From contig CP141148.1 of NCBI GenBank assembly GCA_035235625.1, forward strand, positions 28,831,057 through 28,895,056: DNA of 64,000 nucleotides, in the 5' to 3' direction. Position numbers and translations under genes: made by a program. The notes below the pieces were generated by a model. It made no database searches. It was given only the letters and a program-made list of their open reading frames with translations, and was not told the origin of the DNA. Shown here in pieces: positions 8,857 to 62,153 of this stretch. Position 1 is the first letter of the stretch, and each line of letters starts with the position of its first letter. This stretch comes from Saururus chinensis (Eukaryota > Streptophyta > Magnoliopsida > Piperales > Saururaceae).

Positions 8857-8862
8857 TCTCAA

Positions 8863-11648: not shown

Positions 11649-12185
11649 GAATGCAGCTACTTCCCCCCCAAAATTCACTCAGGGCCCCCCGAATAAGAAA
11701 TATGTAGGTAATTCTTTTATTACTTAGCACCCCCCACACTATTCTTATGAGGCACCCCAACCAATAAAGAAAATAAAAAAACCATTTCATATCCTCTTCA
11801 TTGTGCTCGATGGGCATGAAGTTCTCACTGGCAGCAAAAAGGTTATGAGCATCCCTCCCATCTTCCTCCCTGCCTATAATGGTCGTCCCTCCCAATTGCT
11901 TCTCTCCATGCGTGAAAAGTAGGCTGATTACATGAGTTTCTCTTCTCTCCCACATCCTTGATTAAAGAATTGTCTTCATGCACTTAAAAATCGTTGCTTC
12001 CCATCCAACTCAAAAAAATCCTTCCTTTGGCTGCTTAGCAAGTCATCTTCGTTGATTTTTTGGGCCTTCAATGATTAGAATTTGGGTTCACAGTGCGCCA
12101 TAGCTAATTGAACTTTCACGTGCACGAAGGTATCAAAGCGTCGTTTTGCTTTATGTGATTTGGGGTACCCACCGCTAGGAAATCT

Positions 12186-12637
12186 CCAGAAGGTTTCAAC
12201 ACCCTCGAAAATCTTCTGGAAGTTGGCTAGCGGGGGGTACCCCCCGCCACATTCAATGCATATGTACGGGGACTGTATGTCCCCATCAAATTCTTCCTAC
12301 TTTGGCAGTGATTGATCCTTGCCAGAACTTGTCTAGAAGGTTTCAATGGATGCGAAAATCTTCTGGAAGTTGTCTGGCAGGGGGTACCCCTTGCCACATC
12401 AAATAAATTCATACGGGGACTGTATGTCCCCGTCAACTTCTTACTACTTTGGCAGTGATTGATCCTCATCAGAACTCGTCCAGAAGGTTTCTACACCCTC
12501 GAAAATCTTCTGGAAGTTGTCTGGCAGGGGGTACCCCCTACCACATAAAATAAATTCATACGGGGACCGTATGTCCCTGTCAACTTCTTACTACTTTAGC
12601 AGTGATTGATCCCCGCCAGAACTTGTCCAGAAGGTTC
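12186..12637. repeat. 147-bp tandem repeat, three full units
   Basis: The anchor CC/CTAGAAGG occurs at 12,186, 12,333, 12,480 and 12,627, spaced by exactly 147 bp each time. Each unit carries CTTCTGGAAGTT, a KpnI-type GGGGGTACCCC palindrome and a second hairpin-like CGGGGAC...GTATGTCCCCG. A partial unit with GGGGTACCC precedes the array at about 12,160. Units differ by scattered substitutions but no indels. The array is inside the MULE. Confidence 0.9.
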
Positions 12638-13206: not shown

Positions 13207-13592
13207 TCGCTCGTACAAAAGCTAATGATGCCTGACGTAACCTGGATCTAGCGCCCTAGTCCCGGCTATAGTGGAGAAAACGTATCGATCACAAAAGAAA
13301 TATAGAAAGTAAAAGATGTTGAGGTTGAATAAAGGATTTGTCTTTTATGACCAAGGTGGCTGATAATGGGAGGTTATCGCATGTTGTGAGAGAAACTTAG
13401 GAAACATATCTTCTGGTCATACAATCCTGTCAAGAAAACATTTTTCCAAAATAAGGGAACACAAGCAATTTCCACTTACATTTCACTAAAGGGTGAATCT
13501 TAAAACTCCATTTAACACCTCCTAAGACCTTTCGGAAATGCTTTGGAGTTGCAGAATACATTTCGCTCACATCTCACCCACCACGGGTAATC
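13207..13592. other. 3' flank of UGT copy B
   Basis: No gene. From about 13,445 the sequence matches 10,905-11,049 beside the UGT relic, so this flank was duplicated together with the gene. It should contain the 3' untranslated region and polyadenylation signals of copy B. Confidence 0.6.
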
Positions 13593-15032
13593 TTATTTGG
13601 AGAAGACGGCTTGAACAAAATCATCCACAGCTCGGATAGAGGTACCCATAAATTCTCCATCCTCTGTAACTGCTGCCACAATCATCTCCTTCACTCTCTG
13701 AGCTTTCTTCCTCATCTCCTCCCCCTTCTCTGTCCCACCCATCACCATCTCAATTACTCTCCTCGCATGCCCTCTTTCAACATCAGAGCAATTTCCCCAA
13801 GCAAGCTCCACACAAACACCCAGCTCATCTGCCAGCATCTTGGAGTTGGCATACTGCTCAGCAAACAGAGGCCACCCAATCATGGGTACCCCATGCATCA
13901 AGCTCTCCAGAGTAGAGTTCCACCCACAGTGGCTCAAAAATGCCCCTGTGGACCTGTGGGCCAAGATTTCCAGCTGGGGAGCCCATTTCCTCACCAACAT
14001 CCCCTGCTTCCTCTCGGCCACCCGCGCCTCAAATCCCTCCGGCAGCCATTCGGCTCTAAACTCCTCATTTGCATCAAAGCCCAGTGGAGGCCGGATCACC
14101 CATATAAAGGGCTGGCCATTTGCCTCCAGCCCCAGAGCCAGCTCCATCATCTGTGAGGCTGAGATTGTGTGCATGGACCCAAAGGCTATATAGAGAACTG
14201 ATGATGGTGGGTGGAGGTTGAGCCATTGGATGCACGGATGCATAGCTATAGATCCAATTGGTTGGATTTTGGCTCCTAAAGCTGAAACGGGTCCAATGGC
14301 CCATACCGGCTGGCCAGTTTTCAGGCTGAAGTATCCGATTCCAGTTTGCTCCACCTCCTGTACTGTATTGAACAAGAACCCATCAGCCCTTAGGCATCCA
14401 ACCATCTGCTTCTGCATGAAGCACATCCAAGGGTCTCCATCCTTGAGACTTCTGAGGTGGCTGGGCAACTGTGATTTCCTAACCAATCCTGCCTCTGGGA
14501 ACTCTGGCACGGCGAACACTTCCAAGTCTGTCTTCTGGTGAGGGAGGTTCAACCAGAGGGAGAACTCCATGGCCATGCCATAGGCGCCGCAGGTCATGAA
14601 CACCGAGCTAAAAGCACCCAACTTCTTCCCCACCTCCACTGCCCATCCAAGCAGAAGGTCCACAACGATGCAGACGGAGCCCGGGCCCTGAATGGCACAG
14701 AGGTCGGCAACGAAGCTCTCGAAGGCAGGGCGGAGGGACTCGGCAGCCTCGAGGAGGGCGAGCCAAAGGTGTGGAGGCAGTTCAGCCGGACTGAAGCTCC
14801 CTGGTGGGAGTCCATTCTTGGAGCCATCAAAGGGTAGCTCAAAGAACTCAATATCATTGGTTTTAGAAGAGGTCTGAGTTGAAGATTTGAGGTTGGCGTT
14901 GTTCAGATGGGTATGGACAAGAGTGACGCAGCAGCTGCTTCGTTTCTGGATCAGTTTGGCGAGTGCCATGAAGGGGGTGATGTGACCATGGGCCATGAAT
15001 GGGAAGAGGACTACTTGTTTCACTTCTGCCAT
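13593..15032 (-). CDS. UGT92A: UGT92A-like UDP-glycosyltransferase (copy B)
   Basis: This is a 479-residue intronless family 1 glycosyltransferase, collinear with copy A without gaps and clearly its tandem duplicate. Catalytic His 17 lies in FPFMAHGH and the candidate activating Asp is 125. The PSPG box spans 350-393 and is identical to that of copy A. Differences concentrate in the N-terminal acceptor half (for example residues 40-60 and 78-95), where substrate choice is made in this family, so the two may prefer different acceptors. A TATA-like box lies 40-47 bases upstream of the ATG and the promoter lacks the duplication seen in copy A, so expression may differ. No frameshift or lost key residue is visible. 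The acceptor is unknown; UDP-glucose is likely from the terminal Gln of the box. Confidence 0.93.
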   Translation of the reverse strand: MAEVKQVVLFPFMAHGHITPFMALAKLIQKRSSCCVTLVHTHLNNANLKSSTQTSSKTNDIEFFELPFDGSKNGLPPGSFSPAELPPHLWLALLEAAESLRPAFESFVADLCAIQGPGSVCIVVDLLLGWAVEVGKKLGAFSSVFMTCGAYGMAMEFSLWLNLPHQKTDLEVFAVPEFPEAGLVRKSQLPSHLRSLKDGDPWMCFMQKQMVGCLRADGFLFNTVQEVEQTGIGYFSLKTGQPVWAIGPVSALGAKIQPIGSIAMHPCIQWLNLHPPSSVLYIAFGSMHTISASQMMELALGLEANGQPFIWVIRPPLGFDANEEFRAEWLPEGFEARVAERKQGMLVRKWAPQLEILAHRSTGAFLSHCGWNSTLESLMHGVPMIGWPLFAEQYANSKMLADELGVCVELAWGNCSDVERGHARRVIEMVMGGTEKGEEMRKKAQRVKEMIVAAVTEDGEFMGTSIRAVDDFVQAVFSK

Positions 15033-15071
15033 TGTGAGGCGAAAGGATGCTGGTGTTGAAGGGAATTGGTG

Positions 15072-33710: not shown

Positions 33711-36700
33711 TGTAATGTCCGAGAATTTTCTAAATTCTTGAAGCCGTACACGTAGAAATTAAGGTATAGGACCCCTTGATCTTCCCATGGGAATAAATTA
33801 ATCATCAGTTGGAATTGGTAGCTAAAATATATATGGATGGAAAATAGATGGAAATAGCTTCGAAATGCCACCAAGAATGCAAAAATCAGAGTTCGGATGA
33901 GGGAGATACGACTGTTCGAAGTTGACTTTATCGTGCAGGACCCGTTTACCCGAATTGAAAGTGCGAATTGTCCGTTTAAGTCACTATACGGACCCGATCA
34001 ATTAGCATTCCGAAATTGTGTTTTTGGGGCCTAATTTCTCATGGGATTAGGAGCCCATGCCTATAAAAAGGATTAATTAGGGCTTTTTGGGAGAGAGTTT
34101 TTTTGGACGGTGAAGGGAAGGGGAAAGAGTCGCCGATGAAATTTTTCGGCAAAGCTGCGGCGAGTCTTCAACAGTGGTGGATCGACAAAAACTCGGCCTC
34201 ATAGGTAAGATTTCAAGTTGTGATTAATGAAGAATTTGTTAATTAATTGAAATTTGTGTGGATCTCTGCAATTACTGTTCACACGTAATATTGTGAACAG
34301 TAATTAACTTTTCCGTTGCCAGAATAGCCGACGGAAGTGGACTGTACTGTGAGGCTGCAATGGCCTTGGCCGTGGCGGCTCTGGCTCTGGCCGTAGCAAC
34401 CCTTGCTCTGGCCAGGCCTTGTCAGCGGCGGCTTTGGCTTCCGCTGTGCAGCCCGCCGGACCTTCGTCTTTTTTTTAAAAAAGAGAGGATCTTACGGCTC
34501 CGGCAGCCACCAGGCGGCAGCAGAGCCAAGCCAAACAGGATCCCCACCTAGAGGCGATCTGGTGAGGCTAGCCCCCGCCCCGCCGTGGCTTCCATGGGCG
34601 GTGCCACCAGAGGCTAAGTCTTTGGTGGGACGCGTCGGTAGGATTGGAAAGGCCTGGCTGGCCGTCTGCTGCAGCGGGGCTAGGCTTGATGGGATCGCCA
34701 CTTGGTGGCGATCCTGTCGGTCCTGGCCATTGCCCCGCCATGGCGGCCCGGGAGCCACCACCATGGGGTCCTCACCGGACGTGGGGAAGACGAACCGCTG
34801 CGGGTCGTTTGCTCGGGTTCGGGTTGGGTGACCCAAACCGGGTGGTTCAAGACCTGGTCCGGGTCGGTTTAAAAAAATTGAAAAGAGAAATAATGAGGGA
34901 TGTGAACCGGGTCCGGTTCAGGGGGATAAATATGTCAAACAAATCTTAGAAAATTACTAATGGACTAGGAGAGGTGTGGGATTATTTTGACTGAGTTTGA
35001 GGCCCGTGAAAAATCCCAGAGTCCCTAAAATAACCTTTTTACCCCTGGTAGTTAAATCATCGTGTGAGAACCATTTGCCCGACTTCGGGGCCCCGGTTCA
35101 GGGGCCTAGGAGTTGATTTAAAAATTAGAAAATTTCTCAGTGAGAGTCCAATTGGTTACCAAATTATAGGCCAAATATTGTATTGAAGAAAAATCCCAGT
35201 GAGTGGTTAATTGACCCTTTTGCCCTTAGGGTTTATAGGAAATCGTTAAGTCAACCTAGGTCGGTTCAAGGGGTTTACGACCCCGTCACACACCAGGAAA
35301 ATTACACAGAGTCCATGAAGGCCAGTACTACCCTTGAGTTAAATTTTGGACCCATTAGATGTCATTAAGGTCTTAAACCAAATGACATAAATACCCCTTG
35401 CAGTGGACCCGCCCACATTTGTGTGAATGGAAGCGCGAGTCAGTTTGAGAGTGAAGCCTCTTGAGAGGATTATGACTTAAATAAATAAAAGAGTAGTGAG
35501 ATGACCAAATGAACCAAGGGAGGGTAGCATACCCTAAGTGGTAGAATTACCCTAATGCCCTTAGGGGGTAGTATATTTTCTTTCTGATGAAACAGATGAC
35601 CTAGTGAATCAAGAGTTAAGGTACCCTATAAGTGACTTCAAAAGGAAGGGGTGTGACTGGTAGGTGACACGAAGACCTTGACAGGTCACATTGTCACGGG
35701 AAACCAATGAAAAACCATAATTCTCAGGGTTTAGGGCAGTATATTGCACATGTCTGTAACACGACGCAGAAATCCACTAGGGCATTATATAAGTCACTCA
35801 TGGAATATGTTAATTTACATATTGGGCTTGAATTCTCTGAGCCTAGCCCTGCAAATGAATGCAATGGGCCTTCGTTTATTATTTATACGTTTGTATGATT
35901 GCATGTTATTTACGCTGATGTATGCTTTTGATATTGATGCATTGATTTATATCAGTAACTTAAGATTAATGAAGATTAATCAAGAAACATGGGTTGCTAT
36001 TGGTTTGGAGGGAGAACATCTAATCAAGATAATAACTAAAATACCCTCTTTAGGGTTGGGACCAGTTCATGGAGTGAACAAGGCCCTAACATAGAATTTT
36101 ACCTTGGTTAATGAACCGAGGATGGTTTTGGGATGTTCTTCGAGTCATAGCTCAGTGGATGAGCTATTTAGTGAGCTAATTCACAAGGTGTAGAGGACCC
36201 ACATGGTTGAGTGGTTACTTGACTGGATGAAAATAATCTAGTATAAGTTTCAGATGTTTAGGGGAGTCAATGGTCATAAGGACCTGAGGCTTCTATGGAT
36301 GTATTAGTAACGTCTTATGAGACATTTTCTCCCAGAGTTGGGATGCTGGAGATTGTAATATGCTTCTTCATCGCCACGATGGTTTGGGTATTGTCCAAAG
36401 GGTCTTTACCGCGGGTCTCCCGCAGGTCTTCCCAAGACTATATAATGCTTACGAAAAGCGGAGTCACATGAGCATCATGGAAGGCTTGTGTTTCTTGTCA
36501 ATCTGTGTCCATAACCACAGTTGGGATCCATTCCTCCAGACTCATGGCTGGCTATTGAGAGCCCTGGGGGTTTGGGTCAAGCTGTTGGTAAGCAATCTAC
36601 TCCAAGGTTGGAGTACTTTGTTTGGGGATTTCTCGAGGGGCGAGTCATCTCCGAGTTACAGATTTGATAGTGTTAATTATCGAACAAGGGATGTGAGATA

Positions 36701-37372
36701 ATTAATAACAATGTTTGATATTGCTTGTTAATTAAACAAGTGGAACGGTTAAAGGACTTACTAAAATGTAGGTTAAAAATATCTAAGCATTGCATGTGTG
36801 ATACTATGCTTCTTAGGATAAAATAGTTTCTAGGCAGAACTACGTCTGGATCCGATCTTGTTGGAAACATTGGAGATGTTGTCTGATGAGTACGTAACCA
36901 ACTAATATCGGGTGATGTTGGCCCGATCCAAAAAATATTAATAAAACATTTTGTCCTTTGGAAGCTCTTCTCCTGTAGGCAAAGATGCTCCATTGTGGTT
37001 GTGGTTGTGGTTGTTGTTTGGTTTGCTTTGTTGCAGATTCTCCATGCGACGACAAGTGAGACCAAGGCAGACGTGCACAAAAGGTTTCCGCAATTTTGTA
37101 ACTCCGGTACATAAGTGTACCTTAAGCGTGAGAGTCAACTTATTATTTATTTTTAGACGGACAATGGACTTGTACTTAGATGGATGAGCTGGTCTTTATG
37201 AATTTTCAGACGTTAAATAATATCATATGATTTGATATTCATATTTGTGAACCCCAATTATTATGACCTGGATATTTAATCGAAGGGTTTGTTTTGTATT
37301 TAAAGAAAAAAAATTCTCACTACTTACCGTTCGTGCTATTTAAAAATATTTTTAAAAATTTGGGTCGTGACA
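33711..37372 (+). mobile_element. Solo LTR of a long-LTR retrotransposon (family A, copy 1)
   Basis: The segment begins TGTAATGTCC and ends GGGTCGTGACA, giving canonical TG...CA ends, and is flanked on both sides by GATGA (33,706-33,710 and 37,373-37,377), a perfect 5-bp target duplication. Length is 3,662 bp. It contains a GC-rich island (about 34,360-34,840) whose open frames on both strands I regard as chance, and several short tandem motifs. The same family occurs at 57,802-61,083. With no internal region left, it arose by LTR-LTR recombination. Very long LTRs of this kind are typical of some Gypsy lineages such as Del/Tekay, but the lineage cannot be fixed without pol. Confidence 0.85.
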
Positions 37373-37619: not shown

Positions 37620-37850
37620 TAGTTCTCTCTCTCCTCTCTCTCTCTCCTCTCTCTGTCTTCTCTCTTTTTTCTCTTTCTCTCTCCTCTCTCTATCCTCTTT
37701 GTCCATCTCTCTTCTCTCTCTATCATCTCTGTCCATCTCTCTTCTCTCTCTCCTCTATTTTTCTTTTCCCTCTCCTCTTCTCCCCTCTCCCTCTTCTCTC
37801 TCTCTTTCTCTTTCTCTCTTCTCTCTCTTTCTCTCTTCTCTCTTTTCTCT
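37620..37850 (+). repeat. TC-rich simple repeat
   Basis: About 230 bases of CTCTCT units with recurring TATCCTCTTTGTCCATC-like inserts. It directly precedes the left arm of the large inverted repeat; the right arm is bordered by the matching GAGAGA run at 40,649-40,665. Confidence 0.85.
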
Positions 37851-37852
37851 TG

Positions 37853-40640
37853 ATCTGTGCACTAAATTCGCAGTTTCTTTTTGGAGGAGATTGACTCGAC
37901 TCTGATTTGGCAGTGCAATTTTTGTAATGTGATATGTATTGAGAGAATATGCCTTGAATCGTATTGTTCCTATCAGTTTTCTTCCTATTTCCTTTGTTGT
38001 ATTTGGTCTCTAGTTTTTTTCGTTTGCATTGTGATTTATCGGTACAAGTCTTGTGGATTTGTACCTCGAGATGCTGTGTATATAACTTGGCTGTTGATTC
38101 TGATTGGGGGAAATTCAGTTTTATGTTTTTTTATTTACATTTTATTGTACTTCTTAGGATTACTGGCTGAGTTTGCAATACGAGTGTACGACCGAGTAAG
38201 GACCTTGTAATTGCTTTTCCTGGTCCATGTTGTCCTCATCAGTTGTTGCTTGCAGCTATTATGAGGCCCATTCATCCTACGGCACTGCCATTTTGTTCAT
38301 ATGAGCATACAACTAGGTTAATGGAATACACTCTAATTTTCAATGCCTTTTAAATGTCATGCTTCTTTAAATAAATTGTTGTAGTTGGAAACAGGGAGGG
38401 TTGAATGGAAGGAAAGAAGGTAAGTCCCTGCAAAAATAAGGACGACCTTATAATGATTGAGTTCAATTTTCTATTACCCATTTTTAGGTTTTTCCATTTA
38501 AGGAATCATATAATTTACCTTCTAGTATTTCATTTATAGTGATAATTGCATATGTCCACAGAATCTAGTAAAAACAATGCTTTTCTATTTGATTGCACTC
38601 TCTGGTGTTAGATTTATGGTCAGAATGGAATATATATCTACTTAGGCTATGCAATTATTTGGCCTACTTATTGATTTCCTAACTAATTGAAAGCTAAGTA
38701 TGTATTCAAAACCTTTTAATCCAACTGGATACTAAATTTAATAGGACATAAGACTTTTTTTGTTATAAATAGAAGTTAGAAAATTTCACCTTGGTCAATC
38801 TTAAAAATGGGATATTTTTACTTGTTAAAAATCTATTGGCAATTCGGAAGTGGTAGTTGTGTCCAATGTGAATTTTTTGTATCTCGGCTTATCAAAATTT
38901 GGTGGTTGTCATCTCTTTTATTAAAGTTTGCGTGGTGATATTGAAACCTTTTAATTCATATGGAAACTAAATTTAACAGGACATAAGACCTTTTTTTGTT
39001 ATAAATAGAAGTTAGAATGTACAATAACTGTACGAATATACTACAGCAGAGGGATTAACTAGTTAAAATGAGAAATATGAGTGTTGGGAAAAATGGTTCC
39101 AGCCAATGGCCCCATGCCGTCCAGAGGAGGGCCAAACCCATCCAAATTACATAGAACTACATCGTTTTTTCATTCAAGTGTATAATTAACAGGTTATATG
39201 TAGTAAATGCGACTGACCATGAATTTACCACTAGATACGGTAGTTTGAACAAATGCTATTACAGTGGAACAATTTCAATATCACCGTGCAAACTTTAATA
39301 AAAGAGATCACATATATTTGCAATGTCCAACCACCAAATTTTGATTAGCCAAGACACGAAAAATTCACATTGGACACAACTACAACAACTACCACTTTAG
39401 AATTGCCAATAGATTTTTAACAAGTATAAATATCCCAACTTTAAAATTGACAAAGGTGAAAATTTCTAACTTCTATTCATCACAAAAAAAAAGTCTTATG
39501 TCCTTTTAAATTTAGTTTCACTTGAATCAAAAGGTTTCAATATCACCACACAAACATTAATAAAAGAGATGACAACCACCAAATTTTGATAATCCGAGAT
39601 ACAGAAAATTCACATTGGACACAACTACCACTTCAGAATTTCCAATTGATTTTTAACAAGTATAAATATATCATTTTTAAAATTGATGAATGTGAAATTT
39701 TCTAACTTCTATTTATAACAAAAAAAGTCTTATGTCCTATTAAATTTAGTTTCCAATTGGATTAAAAGGTTTCAAATATATACTGAACTTCCAATTAGTT
39801 AGGAAATCAATATGTAAGCCAGATAATAAAATAGCCTAGATAATAAAATAGACTAGGTAGATATATTCCATTTAGACCATAAATCAACAACAGAAAGTAC
39901 AATCAAGAATAAAACGATCTTTTCTACCAGATCCTGTCGACATATGCAATTAACACTATAAATGAAAAACTTGAAGGTAAATTACTTAGTTCTTTAAATG
40001 GAAAAACCTAAAAATAGGTAATAGATAATTTAAATCAATCATTATAAAGTTGTCCTTATTTTTGCCTGGGCTTACCTTCTTTTCTTCCATTCAGCCCTCC
40101 CTTTTTCCAACTACGACAATGTATTTAAAGAAGCATGACATTTAGAAGGCATTAAAAATTATAGTGTATTCCATATATCTAGCCGTAAGCCCTTCGATCA
40201 ATAGGACTCATAGGAGCTGCAAGCAATAATTAATGAGTGGAACATGCGCCAGGAAAAGCAATTACAAGGTTCTTCCTCGGTCATACACTCATATTAAAAA
40301 CTCAGCCAGTAATTTTAAAAGGTGCACTGAAAAACAAACCACATAGCCCTCGATCAGAATCAACTGCCGAAGGCAGCGTCAAGAGAGTAGCCTTGCAGAG
40401 CTCGTAAGCAAGGACAAAACACCAAATCTCGAGATACAGATACACAAGATTTGTACCGACAAAGCGAAAAAAAACTAGAGACCGAATGCAGCAAAGGAAA
40501 TAGGAAGAAAATTGACAGGAACACCATGATTCAAGACATATTCTCTCAATCTATATCACATTAAAAAGATTGCACTGCCAAATCGGAGTCGGCTCAATCT
40601 CCTCCAAAAAGAAACAGGGAATTCAACGCACAAATCAAAA
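37853..40640. repeat. Large inverted repeat with arms of about 1.17 kb
   Basis: The left arm (37,853-39,017) and right arm (39,463-40,640) are reverse complements across their whole length with modest divergence and a few indels. Landmarks in the left arm and their complements in the right arm are GTTTCTTTTTGGAGGAGATTG, GATTTGGCAGTGCAAT, CAATTACAAGG (right), CATGCTTCTTTAAATA and GTCCAATGTGAATTTT. The 445-nt loop contains a further copy of part of the arm (39,260-39,462). The repeated sequence looks like a 5' leader and first intron of a plant gene (TC run, then GTAAG-type sites), not like a known transposon. No long open frame is conserved in both arms. Confidence 0.85.
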
Positions 40641-40669
40641 CATAAACCTAGAGAGAGAGAGAGATTGCT

Positions 40670-41437: not shown

Positions 41438-41851
41438 TCATTCTCCTCCGTTTTCCTCTTTATCCACAAAAACTATGGCGTCTCCCTCTAATAAAGATAG
41501 CAAATATTTATTCTCTTTGTATATAACAAAGTAAATATGTTTTGTCTTCTTCCATGCTGACTTCCTCATCTTAGTCATGTAAGCCTGCTTGGACTCCTCA
41601 TTGCTCATGTTGGCAAACTTATTCAACCCCACTATGTAGTCCAACAACACGGGGCACCGCTCGACATTCTTCTCCACCACATACTCCAGGTTCCTCATGA
41701 AGTTCCAGAACTTGGCCTCCTTCTTCCCCTCATGTTGGTACATCTTCCCGTGCCTCTCCGTTAATAGCTCGAATAGCTCTCTGACCTGCAAGAAATACCC
41801 TTCATCGTCTGGGTCATAGCCCAAAATGGAGAAGTCATTCTTTGCTGATCA
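41438..41851 (-). pseudogene. Orphan I29 propeptide fragment of a papain-type cysteine protease
   Basis: The minus-strand frame reads NDFSILGYDPDD, then VRELFELLTERHGKMY, KFWNFMRNLEYVVEKN and GLNKFANMSNEE. This is the plant papain-family layout: the N-terminal FSIxGY segment, then the I29 inhibitor propeptide with its ERFNIN helix and GxNxFxD motif (here the final Asp is Asn). In the intact family the propeptide keeps the enzyme inactive until it is cleaved in the vacuole or ER body. Nothing of the catalytic domain (Gln, Cys, His, Asn) follows; the frame ends at 41,438 after unrelated residues. There is no signal peptide; an in-frame TGA lies just upstream at about 41,853. A degenerate second copy of FSIVGYD precedes it at about 41,880-41,915. 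Confidence 0.75.
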
Positions 41852-45240: not shown

Positions 45241-45894
45241 TGACAAAATACAAAACTGTGAAAATAGTTTATAATTTAAAATACTAAACATCAATTTTCC
45301 CATCCAAACTTTTCATCATTCGATCAAACATTGAACTGCCAAACCAAACATCATCAGGTGCTACTCAAAAACAAACGTACGAATAAATTACCATGATCAT
45401 AGATTTTAAATACAAATCTATCCCAGGAGTCCTCGAGTCCAAGTCCCATAAATAGTCCATTGTCTGATCCAAATTAAAAGTCCAGAAGGTATAAACACCT
45501 TAAAACTCATCTCACCCAATACATCAAATTGTGGCACAAAATGATACTCGCAGTAAGTCAAAGATATATCTGTCAAAGGGAAACTATCCACCACAAAAAT
45601 GAGCATCCATCTCCAGGAGCTCTATGTCACAAATATGCAAAAGCCTCTCGAACAACAGGGCTACAAAAATAGGGTAATGACTATTTTCATACTCAATAGA
45701 AAATACCCAGTAGGGGACTTCTAAACAGTGAACTCAGTAAGTCCATACATAGATGCGTTCATACAACTCAAACATGAAGCAGGAAATATATCATAATTAT
45801 GCACATATGCATATAATCATGCATAACACACCATCAAGCCAAATTTACACAAACACCCTTATTCACGGTCTTACAAACTTACTCATACAATTGT

Positions 45895-46170
45895 ACGCTT
45901 ACTCATATCACTTACACATACTTGTACAACCTTACTTGTATAATCTTACACTTACTCATATGACCTTACTCGTATAATCTTACTCATAAACATACGCTTA
46001 CTATCTTGCTCAGAATCATACTCTTACAATCTTGCTCATACTCATACTCTTATAATCATACTCATACTCATAATCTTACTATCGTACTCATACTCATAAT
46101 CTTATAGTCGTGCTCATACTCATAATCGTACGCTTACTCAGAAACACACATACTCACTCATACAGTCATA
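45895..46170 (+). repeat. Degenerate CTCATACTCATAATCTTA tandem repeat
   Basis: About fifteen variants of a short unit built from CTCATA, AATCTTAC and GTACGCTTA follow one another without coding signal. The block is part of LTR B1. Confidence 0.7.
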
Positions 46171-46968
46171 CACATACTATCAACTACTGAATCTCATTAC
46201 AACTAATAAGCTCCAACGTTGAAATGGAAAAGAATGTCACTGGGGCATCACCTTAACCTTTGGGGAGCAACTAGATGCCATTTATTTTTTCAAAGGCAAG
46301 GCATACCAATGCTCATGGGGCACGGGATCAAACAGGTAAGAGTAGGTCTATGATACTACTTACCTGAGCGCGCAAACATAAACACCCACACATAAGGGGT
46401 CATACAATTGCCCGCCATAATGGGTCTTATAGTGCCATAGAATTGCCCACCATTATGGGTCTTATAGTGTCAGTGTCACTCTTGGGCAGAATCATACAGT
46501 GCCACTCTTGGGAAGAATCATACAACACTCTCAAAAGAGCATCAAATGTCTAGGCTTAATTCAGCACATAGACCAAATTGAAAACATGCATTGCTCTCAA
46601 CAAAGCATCAGACTTCTGGTGCTCCATATAGAACACAGACAACATCTGTAGGATAAACACCATGGCAAGACATAAGAAATGCTCAGCAGACTCATTATCG
46701 GCTATCTCAAACAGGGAACTTAATCCTTCGAACCCTCATGTCTCAAACTCACAATGCTAACATTAGCTTTGCTTATAATTCAAGTTCAAATTAAGTAAAT
46801 TATGCAATACAATTATGCCACACAAACTCAGTGCTCGACTGGTCAAATCGAAGTTGAGCCCGATCTGAAACCCTAGTTCGTCAGGGCAGCAAACTTCACT
46901 TAACCCGTCCGTATCATGATCATAACTCACCGTACATCAAATCCTTACATAATCATATAGTCTCTGCC

Positions 46969-47338
46969 TGTTGTGCCCGAGGTGGCACAATGGCCTGGCT
47001 AGCCGGTAACGGGACGGGAGCGGCGTAGGGAGGCTGGGAAAGGGGAGAGGTAGCGGCATGGCCGCCGGACAGGGAGGAGAGGCAGGGGAGAAAAAGAGAC
47101 AGTTAGACAAGAGATAATTCATTCCATAATCTCCATTAGGGCGTAGCTCTTACATTTAAATAGAAGAACTACGTGAGCTCACTAACAGGCACCTAAGGCC
47201 CAATAACATAATTAAAATAAATTACTAATTACCTAATTAACCTAAATTACCTAAATGCCCTTATTACATAAAAATCCTAATTAGCCTAATACGTAGCCCC
47301 AGTGGCACCTCCTGGTAGCCCCTAAGACGTTCACAACA
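46969..47338 (-). repeat. 3' LTR of the nested element
   Basis: Direct repeat of 49,849-50,218. The two LTRs differ at roughly two dozen positions by eye, with no net length difference, so the insertion is not very recent. A TCTATTTAAATG TATA-type motif is present on the minus strand near 47,155. Confidence 0.9.
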
Positions 47339-47633
47339 TTCCACCACGCTTCGCTTGTGCATCACCTCATCCTCAAGATGACCTAAAACTCCAGGCATCA
47401 GGCCCACCAAAGCTCCACTGTGAACAGCCGGTCCGGATCTGTTGATGAGGCACGCCAAATGATGGAGATAGTGTGCAGAAGCCAACACCAACATGATGGA
47501 AGTACAGTTAATGGAACCCAAGGGTAGAGCAAAGGAGCGGCCTTGGCTTGTTGGATGCAGGACAAGCAGACTATTCAGACAGGTCTCCAATAAGTGGGGT
47601 CATCCCAACGACTACAGAGTGCCCCAAGACTAC

Positions 47634-47760
47634 CCACAGAGGGCATCAGACAACAGCAAAGTCAGTCCACAGAGGGCATCAGGCAGCAACAAAGTCGGCC
47701 CACAGAGGGCATCCGACAGCATCATAGTCGGCCCACAGAAAGTAGCAATCAGCAGAGGCA
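47634..47760 (+). repeat. 33-bp tandem repeat (11-residue unit on the plus strand)
   Basis: Units start at 47,634, 47,667 and 47,700 with CCACAGAGGGCATC and a partial fourth follows at 47,733. The plus-strand frame 47,493-47,978 stays open through them and gives PQRASDNSKVS, PQRASGSNKVG and PQRASDSIIVG. The minus strand is also open, so the frame alone is not evidence of a gene. Confidence 0.85.
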
Positions 47761-48109
47761 TAAGCGGCGTAACAGCCTTGGACACAGGTGATGTACTGGA
47801 CCCAAGTGGGCACCTAGATTCTATAGCCCACCGAAGGCACAATCCATGCACAAAGTTGCTTATAGACCTGAGTAGGATAGACTTACAAAAGGCCCACCCA
47901 AATGGAATGCCAAGTTGTGGTAAAGCCCAATGCACACACATACCACATGAAAGTGCAACACTCACATATGTTGTATAAGTGTCTAGGAGTATAAAGAGGG
48001 CATGTCTGTCTTGCATAATTCTTTTTTGGTAGAGACCCGGTGGCAACAGGGATACATGCCCAAATTTTTACCCAGGTAAGAGGAAGGTGGGTCTCAAATT
48101 AGGTATTAT

Positions 48110-49120
48110 TTAATCTAAATCCCAGAAATCCTGGGCAGGTACTGGACTGGAGTCCCCTTTGCTGCTGAACCGCCAAGCGGTGTAGCGGCCAATGAAAAGC
48201 ACGTGGGAAAGAAAATCCTGATTCACCGTTTGAGTGGCATCTCCAAACCGGGAAAACAAATCCCGAAAATCCCGTGTGAGCAGGGAAAACCGCTGGCCCA
48301 GAGATTGCGATGGTGACGGCTCCTCTAGCGTTACACCGGTGGCGACATCCCTGGTGGCGGTGAATGAGCAGAGGAGGACGAGGCCGGTTCTCAGGCGATG
48401 GAGCGCAAGCCGCTCTGGCAACAGGAGCGCGGGCTGCTGTGGCGTTTGAGGCAAAGCATTGTGGAAGGCGAATGAGAGGGCGGAATGGGACAGCGGAGAA
48501 GACTGGAGTTCTGGCGATGGGGCGGCTGCTAGAAAGGCCCCAACTTCGCAGTGCTTACTGCTATTGTAGACTTGATCAAACCATCAGACAGAGGGAACCT
48601 CCAGAAGCTCGTCTGGGATCCCCTGTTTAACGATCTGGAACGCCTGCCACTCCCGGCATGCTTTCTCGATCTCCAAAAGCAGGTCATTGGAGGGGCGGCT
48701 CAGGTTGCTAACAGGAGCGCTGGAGGCCATGGGCGGATTGCTGTGGAGTGGATCATCAAAAAAGAGGGAGGCATGTACCCATCGCTCACCCATGACTGTT
48801 CCGCACTCAAAATCTGCCCAGGAGGGAAGCCAACCTGACCAGATGCCGGCGGGGCTGAGTCCAATCCATGGGATCTCCAACGCCGAGGGAGAGGACGAGT
48901 TTCTTCGGGTGGCAATTTTTCGGGTGAACCGTTCCATGACAGAGGCCGTGTTCCTGATCTGAGCGCGGAGACTAAGTGGCGTCTTCCAATCTAAGCTGGG
49001 GCGCCAGTCCGAAGAAGCAGAGAGTGGAAAAGGCTTGAAGGAGGAAAGGCCTGAAGGCCGAGACAGAGTCGATCGGCCGGAGTGAAAGAAGAAGACCAGG
49101 CTTCTAGCTGCAGATGTTCT
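48110..49120 (-). other. GC-rich captured sequence, source unknown
   Basis: The minus strand is open in long stretches (48,584-49,426 in one frame, 48,110-48,454 in another). Segments such as SRPSNDLLLEIEKACREWQA and FRDLFSRFGDATQTVNQDFL have protein-like composition but match nothing I recognise. The GC content contrasts with the surrounding LTR B1, so this is probably further captured host DNA next to the PPR piece. Confidence 0.4.
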
Positions 49121-49214
49121 GTCAGAAGGTAGAGCACAAAAGGATGCGGCCGGCGTTCTGGCATAAGGTGGAGATCTCCTTGTTGCAATTGGAGATGAGG
49201 CGAATGCGCAACAT

Positions 49215-49502
49215 GGCCAAGAGAACTGCATTGCAAGTGAAGACGGTGGACCGGGGGCTCGAGAAGACGGCCTTGCGGGCAGTAGCGGAGGCATCGTCGA
49301 GGTTGCCTGTGCGGATGAGTAACTGGGTGCTGTTGTGGAGGATGAGGTGGGAGCCAATGAGGTCGGAGGTGGAGTCCAGGAGACGGGGGTCGCGAGGGGG
49401 CCGGGGCGGGGCATTGGGGTCTCCATCGCGGGGAAAATGGAGTGGAGGTTCGATGCGGAGCTGGCGCTTGCGGCGATGGTGCTCGGTGGCGGCCTCTTCG
49501 GT
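49215..49502 (-). pseudogene. Captured fragment of a GRP23-like PPR gene
   Basis: The minus-strand frame contains HHRRKRQLRIEPPLHFPRD, then a Pro/Asp-rich DPNAPPRPPRDPRLLDSTS, then LLIRTGNLDDASATARKAVF and SSPRSTVFTCNAVLLAMLR. The last two blocks are pentatricopeptide-type helices (x-LIRxGxLDxAxxxAR, then TVFTCNAxLxAMLR). The order matches my memory of the N-terminal part of GRP23 (At1g10270), a nuclear PPR protein needed in embryogenesis. After MLR the frame leaves the family and stops at 49,122. No start, transit signal or later PPR motifs are present, so this piece is not a working gene. Confidence 0.7.
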
Positions 49503-49848
49503 GGAGGAGCAAAGGCTGGTCAGGAAGGGGATATGCAAGGCTGGAACATCACGAAGGTTGTATGCCCCTTGTTTTGTTCCTCATGGTCGGCTGTGATGTT
49601 TGCCCATGCAAACACAACAGCCTTCAAATCCTTTATGCCGATTGCTCCAGCACTTCTCCCGTCCGGTGGGTGAGCAGTTGGGCTGGGCGGATCCGGCAAG
49701 AGTGGTGGTGGGCAGAGCCGACGTTGAAAGCACACGGAATTCCTTGCAAGGTGGTCCGGCAGAGGCACTGCCATATGAGGCGGCTTGGGCAGGGCGATCC
49801 AATTAGTTAACAATGGTGGCTCGCGGGGATCAACGGCTCCGATACTAA

Positions 49849-50218
49849 TGTTGTGCTCGAGGTGGCACAACGGCCTGGCTAGCCGATAACGGGACGGGAG
49901 CGGTGCAAGGAGGCCTGGAAAGGGGGGAGGTAACGGCATGGCTACCGGACAGGGAGGAGAGGCAGGGGAGAAGAAGAGACAGTTAGACAAGAGATAATTA
50001 ATTCCATAATCTCCATTAGGGTGTAGCCCTTACATTTAAATAGAAAAACTATGTGGGCTCACTAACAGGCACCTAAGGCCCAATAACATAATTAAAATAA
50101 AATACTAATTACCTAATTAACTTAAATTACCTAAATGCTCTTATTACATAAAAACCCTAATTACCCTAATATGTGGCCCCAGTGGCACCTCCTGGCAGCC
50201 CCTAGGACGTTCACAACA
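49849..50218 (-). repeat. 5' LTR of the nested element
   Basis: Upstream LTR in the element's own orientation. It ends ...GCACAACA on the minus strand, followed directly by T and the primer-binding site. The TATA-type motif near 50,036-50,045 on the minus strand could drive a transcript through the captured PPR piece. Confidence 0.9.
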
Positions 50219-52933
50219 CTGCTATCCACCTTACAGCCAAAACATCTTACTCGGCATCATCAAACTGAACTCCTCATAACAAATCCCAGTTATTATGCTC
50301 TTACTTAATACCTCACTTATTATGCTTATTTTTCACTTCATAATCTGTAAGTTATGCTGGTACAATTATGCACACTCTTACTGTCTGACAATTCCCCCAA
50401 ACATACACTCCAATCCAAACCAATTGATTCCAATCCTTACTCATCAAACTTACCTCCTCTGTCTTCAATCATATGCTTACGCATCCACATCAACATCTAC
50501 GTCCAAATCTCTACCAAACACTCTGTTACCTCTTACTATTCATCGCCCAAACTTCTGCCCACACACATAGTCCACATATGTAGCATACTAACCTATTCGC
50601 TAGCCATCACTAGCGCATACACATTCCACATACATAAAACATGCTTACAACTTACATACATATCATATGTATCTCAACGTGGCATAATTCATTCTCTTAC
50701 ATCACGCAAACAAATCATGATTTAATATCTAAAACATTGAATCATACAATCCTAGCATGCTGTTACTCATTCAAAGCATGCTATCATGAAATTACGAGTT
50801 CAAAGCTCCCCTACCTCATAATTATGACGTTTGATGGCGAGCACACCACGGTGGCAGCACAAGTGGTGGAGTTGGCTGCCAAAAGCATTTCCTAACCAAG
50901 AGAGAGCTATTGTCCCGGGGTTTTAGGAAGTGCCAAAAGTACTCATGGTCAACAGGGGTGTCAAAAGTCAATGCGACAAAATCCGCAATCCACGGAGGCA
51001 CATTGGGGGCATCCGGGAGAAAGGTCATGCCAACGAGTGGCAGGTACAACTGGAATTCGAGGGTGTACTAACTGAAGGTCGATCGGTAGCTGAGAAATAC
51101 TCAGCCGGCCGCAAGACATTAAAATTGGTCGTGGACAACACCCAACGACGTTGATTTCACATTTACAATGGCCCACATAAGGGCGGAGGGCGTGGGGTGA
51201 TACTCAAGAACAAAGGAGAGGTGCCGACGTCTCTGGTGTCAACTCCATTCTGTGGTAGAGCCATCCGATGGTCAGGTGGTGCAAATGCAGCGCCTAAACC
51301 CTAAACCGCATGCACAGCTATATACACACATGGCCTAAAGGGGCTAGGAGAGGGCTGAATGGAGGCAGCCCAAGGCTCGGAAGGGGCAGTAGGGCCATGT
51401 CCATGGGTAGTGGCTAACAAGACGGCCTTTGTCGTTATCGTGCTAAGGTAGGCCAACTAGAGGCCAATCAACGTCTAGCGGGAGTAGGACAGCAAAAGGG
51501 CAACACATGACGCTCTCTATAGTGCAGTCAGACACATAAATGGGTAGAGTGGGAGCCTGGCTCATGCAAAAAGAAGAGGGGCAGTGCTACACTAGGGCGG
51601 CCAACCATCTCTAGGCTGAGACCCGCCAAACTAAGGTGGCCTAGAGGTGTTCGGCGTCCAACAATGCTACAGTAGCCCAAATGGGTGGAAAACCCTAGGG
51701 GCATAGATGAGCAGGGGTTACTAGCGGCTATGGCCGGCTCTAGTGTGGCCCTAGCAGCCAGAAGGAGCTATCTCCGGCCAGATATCATGGCCAATGGTAG
51801 TGGCGACACACTGAACATACAACACAGTGAGCAAAGACCCTATTTTGCAGACCGAATAGAACACTAGAGCGAGATCTACGGATCTAGCTCCGACGAAGCG
51901 GAGGGGACAGAGACTAAACAAGGATCGGAGGGATGGCCCACTGGCATCACTTAGCCGGGGCAAAGCCAGATGAAGGTCAGGTTGGCCAAGTCCAGAGTCT
52001 GGCTCACAGCAGCAATCATAACGTCCAAGATGGACAGAGACCGAAAATAGGGGACGTTTGAACTGAGCAAAGGAGAGATGGAGGGGGAGGAAGAGGAAGA
52101 GGAACCAGGCCAGGTGAGCTGGCCCACTACCTTCGTCGGACCAAGACAGGGCTAGATGGAGGTCCAGTCAGCAATGACTCGCCGCTAGCAACCATTGTTT
52201 CATTAAAACACAACTCAGGCGAAAAATAGGGCATAGGGGGAAAAGAGGACGGGTGGCGGAGGGGAGGCCCACTGGGGCCGGCCCAATGGAGAGCCATAGT
52301 CGGCCGGCCGGCCCTTGTCGGGCCACAGTAGTGGCGCAATCAAAACATAGAGAGAAGGGGGGAAACCAAACCAGGAATGAAGCTCACTTGGGGGCCAACG
52401 GAGCTGGTTGGCGGCCGGCCTTGCCGTCACCGGCCAGTGGCTAGCCAGGCGGAATTCACCAGCCACCACCGATGCCACCCGGTCATGAGGCAAAGAGACT
52501 GAGGTGGAACGGGGAGAAAATGGGGGAGAGACGTGGGGTGTTGGGGAGAGCAATAGGGGCCGGGTACAGCCATCCCTGGCCATTGCTAGGCTGGGGCAGA
52601 GCCGGTAGTGGCGGCCCTGTGGCCCACCGGTGACTGGAGCACAAGAAACTGAAAAGTGGGGTAGTTCTCTTCCAAAAATGTCTCGATCGGGCTCGGCCGA
52701 GCCCAAGCCCATTTTCTTTCTCTTTTTTTCTTTTCTCTCCCTTATCCTCTACACTTCTATTTTCTTTTAATTTTTCGCACTATAAGCACGTGTCCAAGCC
52801 TGCAGCCTAGGACTGAGCCTCACACCCGACTACTGGTACAAATACCAAAGCCAAATACTCTAAAACATCATATTTTTTTGCCAAAAATAATAGAAAAATT
52901 ATAAGAAATCATAGAAAAATCAAGGATATTACA

Positions 52934-56492: not shown

Positions 56493-59400
56493 CATAATCT
56501 GTATGTTAGGCTTGTACAATTATGCTTACTTTTCACTTCATAATTTGTATGTTATGCTTGTACAATTATGCACCACTCTTACTGTCTAACAATCACCCAA
56601 CATATGCTCTGATCCAAACCAATCCCATCCGATCCACTCCAATCCTCGCCTATCAAAATCATATCCTCTGCCTTCCACCATACGCTTACACATCCACATT
56701 CAACTCCATACTAAACCCTTTGTCACCTCTTACAGTCCATCGCCCATCCATATGCTCCACACACACATACACATATCCATTGCATAGGCGTATAGCCATC
56801 ATATATATGTATGTCCATCACACATACATATAGCATACACATACTTTCATATATAGCTTACCAACATACTCGCTAGCCACCACTAGCACATACATACACA
56901 TCCATATACGTAGAAACATACTCGCTAGCCATCACTATCACACACACAATCCACAAACATAGCTTACTAACATACACACTAGTCATCACTAGCACACACA
57001 TACTTCAAACATGCCTACAGCCCACATGCATGTCATATGCATTTCAACATGATATAATCTAACCTCTTACATCATGCAAACGGATAATGATTTAACATCC
57101 AAAGCATTGAATCATACAATCATAGCATGTTGCTACTCATTCAAAGTATGCTATCATGAAATTACGAGTTTAAAGCTCCCCTACCTCGTAATCATGAAAT
57201 TTGATGGTGAGCCCACGACGGTGGTTGTGTCGGTGGCGGAGTTGGCAGCCAAAAGCATTGCCAAGCTGAGAGAGCTATTGTTCCGAGGTTTAGGAAGTGT
57301 CGGAAGTACTCACGACCAAACGAGGTTACACAGATCAATGTAGAAAAAAATGTGATCCACGACAGCACACTAGGGAGGCCAAGAGAAAGGTCGTGCCAAC
57401 ATAAATGGCGGTGCAACCAGAAGTAGAGGGTGTACTCACTGAAGGTGGGCCGGTGGCTGAGAAGTACTCGGCTGGCCGCAAGACGTAGAAATTTGCCATA
57501 AATGCACCCAACAGCGGCGATTTCTCATCAACAAGGGCCCACATAAGAGCAAAAGGCAGGGAGCGATGATCAAGGACGGTGGAGAGGTGGTGGAGGACTC
57601 CAATGTCAACTTCATTGAGTGCTAGAGCCATCCGACGGTCAGGAGAAACAAATGCGGCGCCTAAACCTTGAAATGCACGCGTGGGTACATGCACATGCAG
57701 CCAAAAAGTGCTACTCTAGGGGGAGATGTGTTGACGATGGCGGCCCAAGGCCCACAAAAGTGCAACTAAGCTATGGCCAGGAGGTAGTGGCCAATTGAAA
57801 CTGTAATATCCCAGATTTTTCTAGGTTTCAAAAATTAAATACGTGAAAAATAGGGTGTTTGACCCTTTTATATTCTTAGTAGAATAACGTCTTTAATAGA
57901 TAGAATTTCTAGCTGAAACAAATTTTATTATAAATTAGACAGAAAGAGCTTCAAAATGTCATCAAGAATGCACAAATTGAAGTCCACATGAGGGAGATAC
58001 GGCTGTTCGAAGTTGAACATATCGTATAGGGCCCATTTACATGATTTTAACATGTAATTGGGCTATTTAAGTCATTTTGCAAGCCCGATTAATTTGAATT
58101 CTGAAATTGTTTTTTAGTTGCCTAATTAGGTGGCCCAATTGAGGAGGATTGGCCTAACTTCTAGGGAGATTAGGAACCCTAATCCCCATACTTATAAAAG
58201 GCCTTGTTAGGGCACAATTGAGGGGGTCTTTTGCCTGATAGGAAGAGAGAATGGGGTGACCGGCAAAGCTCCGGCAAGGTTCCGACGGCGATGGATCGAC
58301 AACAAATTAGCGATTAAGGTAGGATCATTACCATTGTCTTCACTTGGAGATTAATAAAAGTTTTATTAATTAGATTTGAATAAAAAATAGATCTCTGTAC
58401 TGTGTAATTTACATAACAGTAATCATTGTTCCGTAATTACGTTAAACACTAAGTTTTATTTCTCAAATATCACTGGTCGGCTGCCAATCGGCAAGTGACC
58501 GGCTAGCCATCGTCTAGTTGCGGCTTCATGCAGACCAGGCTCGGGCACGCATCCACTGCCAAACAAACTGCCAGCTAGTGCACAGAAAAAAAGGGAGACA
58601 AGCACTGGCCAACCTAGGCCGCGATGGCTCCGGTTGCGCCAGCCTAGGCCACACTGGCCCTAGCCGCGAAGGTAGCTCCACTGCACAGTTTAAAAAAAAG
58701 AAAACCAAAAACCAAAAAGGGCCATTTTGGCCGCCGGCCACCAAACAACAATGGGACCAACCCTGTCGGTTTTGCCGTACGCCGGCGGTCTGGAGGCACT
58801 GAGCCGCCCACCCCTCCACCGCGGTAGGGGATGGCGCTCCCAAAGGCCAAAAGGCCTCTGGCCGGTCGGGGGGAAAATGACCTGCATCGCGGGTCATCGC
58901 ACTCCGGACCGGGTCGGGTAACCCGACCCAGTTTGGTCCAGCTCCTTAAAAAAAACTTATACTCTAACTGAATCTAGTCCTGTTCAGTAAGTTAGAGTAG
59001 TTAGAAAATTTTGAAAAAAATTATGAATGACCATGAATGTATTCCGAGGGCTCTGACCAAGTTTTAGATTGAGGAAAAATCTCAGATGCTTTGAAATGAC
59101 CAATTTACCGTTGTGAGTTAAAGCATAGAATAATATTTAATGACTAAACTTAGGGGCTGCAGTTCAGGGGCCTATGAGTGGATTTAAAAATTGAGAAAAA
59201 TCTATTGATATTTTAATATGTATCCTAAATTTGGACCAAGCCACAAGCTAGGTAAAATTTCCAGTAAGTAGATATTTGACTATATTACCCCTACAGTTAA
59301 GGTAAGATGGTTAATTAAACTAGGGGTAGTTCAAGGGGTTTACGACCCCGTTAAACAGTAAGAAAACCACATTGGGTTCATAACGTCAAGGTGTACCCCT

Positions 59401-62153
59401 GGGATTAGTTTTGGACCTATTAGGGTTCAGGGAAGCCCTGAACAAAAAAACAAAAATACTTTTATGAGCGGACTGGTCTGCATTTGCGTGAATGAAATTA
59501 ACAGGCCAATGTGATACTCAAACCTTTTGAGAGGTTAAAGACTTACCTGAGGAGCAAAGAAGAACTTATCCAATGCTGGATAATTGCTTTAATGCCCTTA
59601 GGTGCATCATGACTAGTTTTCATAAGTTAATCAATTAACCTAAGGAGGGTTAGGGCACATGAGCTCAAACAATTCTAATATCATTATTGAATTTGGTTAT
59701 TGATATTATGATATGCTTCGACCTGTGTGGTTCTAATTATTTATGTTGTTGTTTCTATATTTGCTTTTGATGTTATGATGATACCTTATCATTAGCTTAA
59801 GATTATTGAAAGATTAATTGATGGGGTGGATAACTTTGGATTGGGTGAGAAAACCTAATCAAGATAAATACTAAAATACCTCAGAGGGGTCTGAGACTAG
59901 TTCATAGGTGAACAAAGCCTTTGACCTGATGATTTACCTTGGTTGATGAACTGACGATAGTTTCAAATTTAAAACCCAAGTCTAAAAGGGACTAATAGGG
60001 TTTGGGATAGTCATTCGGAATCTTGGCTTATTGATGAGCAAGATCGGGTTTAGAATGGTTTCCTGAGTTTTAGCTCTATTGAGGAGCTGCTGATTTGACT
60101 GTGTAGTTGCACCTCCCCATTGGAGGGAGATCTGTGTGAGCCAGGCTTACTTTTGATCTATTGGGGATCTTTTAGTGTACACATATTTGGATTAGCTCAC
60201 ATGCTGCTTGGTTGGCTTTTCCCACCACTTCTGTTTAGGTGCAGTTGTGGGTCATGCTCTTCCACTCCGGTTAGGTCCTTTGTGGGCTAGGAGGGGTGAT
60301 GGTACTTCCTGGTGGATTCTAGGGGCCTAGTGGATTTTAGGGTGTTTCGTCATGAATTTACCTTTGAGGGTGGTCTATGGTGAATTTATCATTTATCACG
60401 TAGGTTGACATCTGATGAGTCTGTCTGTCAATGGGATTAGACAGGGATATTAATTATCGAACAATAGTTCCAGAGATAATTAATAACATTGTTTGATATT
60501 ACTTGTTTAATTAGAACAAGTAGAACAATTAAAGGACTTGCATAAAATGTAGGTTGCTTTAAAATACTTAAGCATTGCATGTGTGATGTTATGCTTCTTA
60601 GTATAGTATAGTTTTAGGCAGAACTACGTCTGAATCCAATCTTATTGGAAACATTGGAGATGTTATCTGATGAGTACGTAGGCAACTAACATTGGGTGAT
60701 GCTGGTCTGATCCAAAAAACATTGAATTTTATTTTTGTTCATCTAAAACGCTCTTCCAAGGGGTGGAGATGTTTGGTTTTTGTTTGGTCTTGTTTGCTTG
60801 CAGGTTCTTTAGATGGGGATGTTGTGAGATCAGGACGTTGGTGGGCGTTTGAGGACAACATTGCACTAGTTGGATCTAGTTTCTTACTTCTCCAATCTTA
60901 TAAGTAATTATAATTACTGGTGTGAGAGACAACTTTACTTTGTTATTTATTTTCTAACAGATGACAAACTTGTACTTAGAGGGTTAACCTACTATTTATT
61001 AAATTTTGACATATGTAATAATATCATATATTTTGATATTAGTATTTGTGAACCCCAATTATCACGACCTAGATATTTAATCGGATGATTTGATTCGGCA
61101 ATGATATCGTCGATCACCACCCACACCCAAAACCAATGGTGAGGGCGGCTATGCATCTCGCACGTAAAAGAGCGAAGGGTGATTCAAGGTTGAGCAGTGG
61201 CTGAGCAAAGGCTACGATGAAGCAAGGCTAACCCCAAGGCCAATCGGAGGCCAATCGGTGACCCGAGGCATCATAATGGCAAAATGGCTACGAAGGGTCA
61301 ACAGGTAAAACCCAAATCGAGGCATAAGGGCGGAGCAAGACAATAGGGGCGAAGCGGGGTCAGAAACAGCAACCCCCAACCAACACCGGGTCAAGATATG
61401 TTGGACGGAGTCCGTCTAGTGGCTAGACGACAACCACAAACACAACGACGTCTAAAAAAACATCAGACAGTGAGATGAAAATAAGAACAAAAACCGACCA
61501 AAGTACCGGTAGCTCACAGAGGAGCAAAGAAAGCATGACAACAGCTCTAGCCAGTGCCTATGGGTTCCTAGCTGCCAAACGAAGATAAGTTTAGTTGAGG
61601 GCGGCTGAAAATGACATCAAAATCGCACCCCCATGACCCAAAAACGAATTTAAGAAGGGAGACAAATTGAAGAAAAGTCTGGTACCTAGTGGAGGAGCGA
61701 AGAGGACATTGCAATGGTCATAACCGGTACCTATGAACTTGTTGCAATAAGGCGAAGTGGATCCCAGAAAGAACTGGCAGAATCCAATGATGAAGGAGGG
61801 ACAACGCAGCGACCATAAATACACTCAGGTTTTCTCACAAAGTTACTGGACGTCGAGTTTTCTGGACTCCAGTTTTCGAGTTCCAGAACTTATACTCTTT
61901 TTTATTTTTCTATCGATGTCCCTAACACATGTTAACCTATTGTTTATGCATTATACCTCCAAAATTCATGTCGAAAGTGTGCTGCGAGGCCCATGGTCTA
62001 TGACTAAGCCTCATACCCAACTCTACAGGTATAAATATGAGGGTAAATACATAAATATGAATACGCAAAAACATCATATTTTCCTACAAAAAATGACCAG
62101 AAAAATAATAGAGAAATTACAAAAAAAATTATTGAAAAATCAGAGACATTACA
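56493..62153 (-). mobile_element. Long LTR family B copy 2, left part missing
   Basis: The sequence aligns with B1 from about 50,330 rightward (CATAATCTGTA, TACAATTATGCAC, ACTCTTACTGTCT, then CATTGAATCATACAATC and GAAATTACGAGTT). The right end GAGACATTACA gives TGTAATGTC on the minus strand. It is interrupted by LTR A2 at 57,802-61,083. Roughly the distal third of the LTR is absent at the left. Confidence 0.65.
57802..61083 (+). mobile_element. Long LTR family A copy 2, nested in LTR B2
   Basis: The start TGTAATATCC and blocks such as GAGGGAGATACG(G/A)CTGTTCGAA, GGGTCGGGTAACCCGACCC, GGCAGAACTACGTCTG and TTGGAAACATTGGAGATGTT match 33,711-37,372 in order. It ends at about 61,083 (ATCACGACCTAGATATTTAA), roughly 100 bp short of the expected terminus, and no target duplication is seen. 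Flanking B2 sequence resumes on the right. Confidence 0.75.

Follow-up and report, generated by a model that had tools for sequence, protein, structure and literature searches.

The maize element Bs1 is about 3.2 kb in length and has long terminal repeats (LTRs) of 302 bp. According to the excerpted text of a 2026 review, it contains pieces of three genes and its chimeric gene is transcribed and translated; one Arabidopsis case of a terminal-repeat retrotransposon in miniature (TRIM) and the tomato element Rider are also given there (PMC13317346). In the consulted part of a TRIM survey, gene pieces are recorded for 30 elements, of which two combine exons from more than two genes, and the soybean TRIM GmaRetroS15 features pieces of three genes, exons only (PMC4717578). 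For maize, 425 LTR elements with gene fragments were reported, none with two or more unrelated pieces as far as the excerpt of that survey extends (PMC2774510). Captured genes number 672 in rice and 1,343 in sorghum, and the pentatricopeptide repeat (PPR) domain PF01535 is among the top ten captured domains in both, yet under-represented compared to all proteins, as stated in the section of the source used here (PMC3726574). Here, we analysed a 64,000-nt stretch of the Saururus chinensis genome (assembly GCA_035235625.1, contig CP141148.1, positions 28,831,057 to 28,895,056 of the forward strand; in the following called the window). We conclude that positions 46969-50218 very likely represent a minus-strand, non-autonomous LTR retrotransposon with captured coding sequence from two or more unrelated host genes: one piece derives from the N-terminal part of a PPR gene of the GRP23 type, a second one probably from that of a 2-oxoglutarate dioxygenase gene.

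The element has a total length of 3,250 bp, of which 2,510 bp form the interior. Its LTRs, located at 49849-50218 (5' LTR) and 46969-47338 (3' LTR) on the minus strand, are both exactly 370 bp long. Their gapless alignment has 342 identical positions out of 370, and the differences are 24 transitions and 4 transversions (E 2e-154 in a self-BLAST of the window). Both start with TGTTGTG and end with TTCACAACA, thereby showing the TG...CA termini. The insertion is flanked by target site duplication copies at 46964-46968 (CTGCC) and 50219-50223 (CTGCT), which are identical at four of five positions. A minus-strand primer binding site, TAGTATCGGAGCC, was found at 49835-49847, separated from the right-hand LTR by a single base of the interior. 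It matches TGGTATCAGAGCC, which we take to be the primer site of the initiator tRNA-Met, at 11 of 13 positions and is the sole site with at least 11 of 13 matches on either strand of the 64-kb window. Since this site lies on the minus strand beside the right-hand LTR, the element reads on the minus strand and 49849-50218 is its 5' LTR.

All 45 six-frame segments of the interior with at least 28 residues were scanned against Pfam, some with slightly shifted ends and, depending on the segment set, at E ≤ 10 or E ≤ 1. Neither gag/pol nor any other retroelement family was detected in any of the 45. A PDB search of the PPR open reading frame (ORF), of 49125-49214 and of three further interior stretches also yielded nothing meaningful. 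The LTRs, the target site duplication, the primer binding site and the lack of a detected gag/pol domain support an LTR retrotransposon without recognisable enzymes of its own, i.e. a non-autonomous element. The original prediction, made from the sequence letters, had described 370-bp LTRs with matching ends, a primer site, a near-perfect target duplication and an interior free of retroviral-type genes, and the present results agree with it.

The interior harbours, at 49200-49544 on the minus strand, a fragment of the N-terminal part of a PPR gene of the At1g10270/GRP23 type (At1g10270 presumably being GRP23). Residues 22-128 of a longer reading frame, a stop-free region, were used to search a database of 5.8 billion proteins, which returned 15 proteins at E ≤ 10 among 398 candidates, with E values from 4e-29 to 1e-20. 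PF01535 is listed for all 15 proteins. Ten are named pentatricopeptide or At1g10270-like by NCBI, three more are so named by a second source, one from Vitis is an 'unnamed protein product' and one is nameless; the ten named by NCBI come from plants such as Nelumbo, Macadamia and Lolium. The PPR ORF on its own as query gave nothing among 174 candidates, since this search is restricted to proteins of similar length. When the 15 relatives were aligned to the window with tblastn, the matches started at 49508 (11 proteins), 49532 (two) or 49544 (two) and ended at 49200 or 49206 (13) or at 49152 (two). The captured piece is real, with a match at 49200-49508 that reaches 49544 at most.

The PPR fragment comprises about 103-115 codons and is N-terminal only; the full protein with its PPR array is absent. 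It shares 49.6-62.9% identity with the 15 relatives across 101-127 aligned residues, and the core common to the alignment reads EEAAAERRRRKRRLRIEPP ... LHNRVQSLIR ... RPTVFTCNA. The matched region is N-terminal in 14 of the relatives, and in the remaining one (P0014, 1,230 residues) it is found at 636-740. The prediction of a GRP23-like capture in the orientation of the element is thus well founded. Of the 96-codon block proposed at 49215-49502, the reading frame, in fact slightly longer, and the Arg/Pro-rich N-terminal layout were recovered. As to the predicted PPR helices, Pfam reports no PPR motif in the matched piece, most of which is the N-terminal segment rich in Arg and Pro, followed by a short stretch that is helix-like. 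The piece departs from its relatives at 6 of the 43 sites that are invariant among all 15, compared to 0-3 of 43-46 invariant sites for each relative in a leave-one-out control. Such losses of conserved residues in a frame that is still open fit decay after capture.

A second host-gene piece, overlooked when the cargo was described as a PPR piece alone, is probably present at 48599-48712 on the minus strand, where similarity points to the N-terminal domain of a 2-oxoglutarate/Fe(II)-dependent dioxygenase. The sequence NDLLLEIEKACREWQAFQIVKQGIPDELLEV sits near the end of the 311-codon ORF 48587-49519 (minus strand) and in its frame. The Pfam family DIOX_N was matched with E 6.2e-4 when the whole 311-codon frame was used and with E 6.8e-5 when the query was limited to 58 residues. 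In a PDB search of the region, hyoscyamine 6-dioxygenase was the top match (E 7.4e-4), and 10 of the 11 rows at E ≤ 1 bear names of 2-oxoglutarate oxygenases or ACC oxidases from plants, with one 'O-demethylase' counted among the ten by inference; the exception is a designed protein (E 0.44). DIOX_N was found in none of nine control sequences (the reversed piece and eight shuffles), and the reversed control gave a match to an unrelated Pfam family at E 0.18.

Codon-like periodicity, measured as unequal GC content by codon phase, provides additional means to judge the interior, as homology scores do not enter the calculation. Ten interior segments were examined with 5,000 permutations each. Low p values were obtained for the PPR piece at 49200-49544 (0.0006), for 49125-49199 (0.0004), for the segment 49020-49199 that contains the latter (0.0038) and for the dioxygenase piece at 48599-48730 (0.003), and the remaining six segments yielded values of 0.12-0.82. 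When phases were assigned by hand, the high GC content of the PPR and dioxygenase pieces fell on the third codon positions of their homologous frames. In a sliding scan carried out earlier, the seven windows with low values (p ≤ 0.012) covered the places of the PPR piece, 49125-49199 and the dioxygenase piece.

The 75-bp stretch 49125-49199 (minus strand) is coding-like and continues the PPR frame, with a GC content by codon phase of 0.84/0.44/0.28 and the same phase as the PPR piece. No matches to it were found in Pfam and PDB, and in a comparison with the 15 PPR proteins, 75 of 300 shuffles scored equally well. A second PPR helix at this position, which was considered as a candidate, is hence unsupported by Pfam, PDB and the shuffle comparison. 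The stretch may have been captured as a third piece, or it belongs to the PPR parent and has diverged. A more far-reaching idea is that the element acted as a serial gene-shuffling vehicle, in which the N-termini of a PPR protein and of a dioxygenase were combined with another coding piece, joined to the PPR frame near 49200, and that sister elements carry other combinations; we regard this idea as rather unlikely.

The PPR and dioxygenase pieces are both oriented in the sense of the element, represent N-terminal parts of unrelated genes and are stop-free within the matched part. For a non-autonomous element with such cargo, we infer the following course of events. Transcription would start from the right-hand (5') LTR and reverse transcription would be primed by the initiator tRNA-Met. 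The transcript may have been packaged together with host mRNAs in particles of an autonomous relative, whose Gag/Pol would also have performed copying and integration. The host pieces would have been gained before insertion; their most likely source is a switch of template to host mRNAs in the course of reverse transcription, which would have happened at least twice. Read-through from a neighbouring gene is a less likely source of two unrelated N-terminal pieces. The Kimura distance between the LTRs is 0.081. Substitution rates of 1.3e-8 and 6.5e-9 per site per year correspond to an insertion age of about 3.1 and 6.2 million years, respectively, so that the sequence would have drifted for roughly 3-6 million years since.

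Several observations weigh against this interpretation. The target site duplication copies differ by one mismatch (CTGCC/CTGCT, 4/5) and the tract preceding the 3' LTR, AAGCGAAGCGTGGTGGAA, is poor as a polypurine tract, being interrupted by pyrimidines. Both features would suit LTRs that stem from two separate insertions flanking host pseudogenes, in which case no single element would exist. The primer binding site, however, is correctly placed and stranded and has no equal at its score in 64 kb, a target site duplication is present at both outer ends, and the gene pieces come from unrelated families, lie on one strand and cover just the N-terminal part each, which makes separate insertions a very improbable explanation. 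Further points concern the dioxygenase piece. Its DIOX_N score of 23.9 bits (58-residue query) is below the curated Pfam cut-off of 27.3 bits, the match spans few residues (Pfam 38, PDB 46), and a protein database search of the region gave no match at E ≤ 0.01 among 13 candidates. The limits of the periodicity segments were picked once the homology was known, and two sliding windows gave borderline values, 48459-48668 (p 0.044), which overlaps the dioxygenase piece, and 48879-49088 (p 0.032). If the resemblance to dioxygenases was due to chance, only the PPR capture would be real. The score below the cut-off and the negative protein search speak for this alternative, which is nonetheless unlikely, as the Pfam and PDB libraries agree on the family and on overlapping residues, the nine reversed or shuffled controls lack DIOX_N, and GC periodicity marks the same stretch, the third codon positions of its frame being the GC-rich ones.

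Pack-MULE and Helitron transposons can carry pieces of several genes, and a DNA transposon of either type nested in the LTR element might have brought the host pieces. Long terminal inverted repeats are missing in the interior, where six ungapped inverted pairs of at least 12 nt were found, none longer than 17 nt. The 17-nt pair at 48156/49499 is 82% complementary, has one side within PPR-matching sequence and flanks that share four of nine bases by eye. None of 13 CTRRT sites is preceded by a perfect GC-rich hairpin of at least 6 bp, as expected for Helitron-type ends; this rule is stringent (shuffles average 0.08), and diverged ends of either transposon kind could escape. On balance, a nested transposon appears quite improbable. 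Compatible with the capture of at least two host-gene pieces by an LTR element, but in our view very improbable, is a working chimeric protein encoded by the 311-codon ORF 48587-49519 (minus strand), as proposed for maize Bs1. Among 500 dinucleotide shuffles of the interior, one contained a frame of this length, compared to six of 500 for its GC-rich part. Long shadow frames are, however, expected across GC-rich coding sequence, the ORF reads the PPR piece out of its homologous frame and the PPR piece has lost conserved residues.

Other features of the interior and its surroundings complete the description. A 33-bp tandem repeat of about 3.2-3.7 units is located near the 3' end of the interior at 47633-47754 (two rows in Tandem Repeats Finder and a repeat search). 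Besides DIOX_N, the Pfam scan gave matches to PRIMA1 (E 0.085 and 0.28), Mucin-like (0.0056), EsV_1_7_cys (0.11) and Meckelin (0.23), which were taken as chance because all are far under the Pfam cut-offs; the Mucin-like match falls on the 33-bp repeat. No match to Rfam was obtained across the window at the gathering threshold. A second copy of the element was not found within the window, where weak similarity was limited to two places, 27 and 34 nt long. No convincing empty target site was detected when 400 bp from either side of the element were compared with the remainder of the window. To the left of the element, diverged tandem repeats with units of 26, 34 and 35 bp occupy 45865-46524. 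About 100 bp past its right end starts a direct repeat (50319-51346 and 56519-57713, about 75% identity), possibly representing old LTRs of a larger element. A 32-nt match at 56654-56683 (81%, E 0.15) that spans the insertion joint is not colinear with the repeat at 56519-57713 and was regarded as chance.

Five colinear repeat stretches (33711-37294 and 57802-61095, 66-85% identical) are possibly two old copies of one larger element. An inverted repeat at 37824-39017 and 39464-40664, with arms of about 1.2 kb that are 79% alike and further internal repeats, is perhaps fold-back or MULE-like. A cathepsin propeptide inhibitor domain (I29, Pfam E 2.1e-8) is encoded by a frame at 41441-41848 (minus strand), which may belong to a gene or pseudogene for a papain-like protease. 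At 7420-9006 and 13596-15071, both on the minus strand, lie two equally oriented genes for UDP-glycosyltransferases (Pfam UDPGT), which are 89% identical over about 1.5 kb. Between them lie a 147-bp tandem repeat with 3.1 copies (12185-12636) and a segment (10899-11274) with about 82% identity to 13441-13819, i.e. to the second gene's 3' end and the sequence downstream of it.

Compared to proteins of the At1g10270/GRP23 type, the element retains the N-terminal part alone, lacks the PPR array and has lost conserved residues. With the gene-capturing LTR elements of maize, rice and sorghum, as described in the excerpts, it shares a host gene piece between intact LTRs. Among the gene-carrying TRIMs, GmaRetroS15 is likewise a small LTR element with pieces of several genes; in the text drawn on here such TRIMs measure 1,172-1,449 bp (PMC4717578), compared to 3,250 bp for the present element, which is too large for a TRIM. 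By analogy, the element appears most like Bs1 as a case of multi-gene capture by a non-autonomous LTR element, both being LTR elements whose interior contains pieces of several unrelated host genes. Within the limits of the excerpted review, they differ in cargo (ATPase, xylan endohydrolase and glucanase in Bs1); for Bs1, a chimeric gene that is transcribed and translated is described. On its own, the element analysed here is a single decayed copy that shows no sign of function. Plants mix gene pieces in several ways, among them capture by LTR elements, and elements with several pieces are scarce in the portions of the literature surveyed, so that an example with firm limits would help to test repeated switching onto mRNAs. 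The statement in the original prediction that gene capture is rarely seen this clearly in one window suits the multi-gene cargo better than capture in general: single captures have been reported in the hundreds, and the survey excerpt gives 425 maize elements with gene fragments (PMC2774510). Taken together, and as far as the cited excerpts extend, the element seems to belong to a known kind of gene-capturing LTR element, in its apparently rarer multi-gene form.
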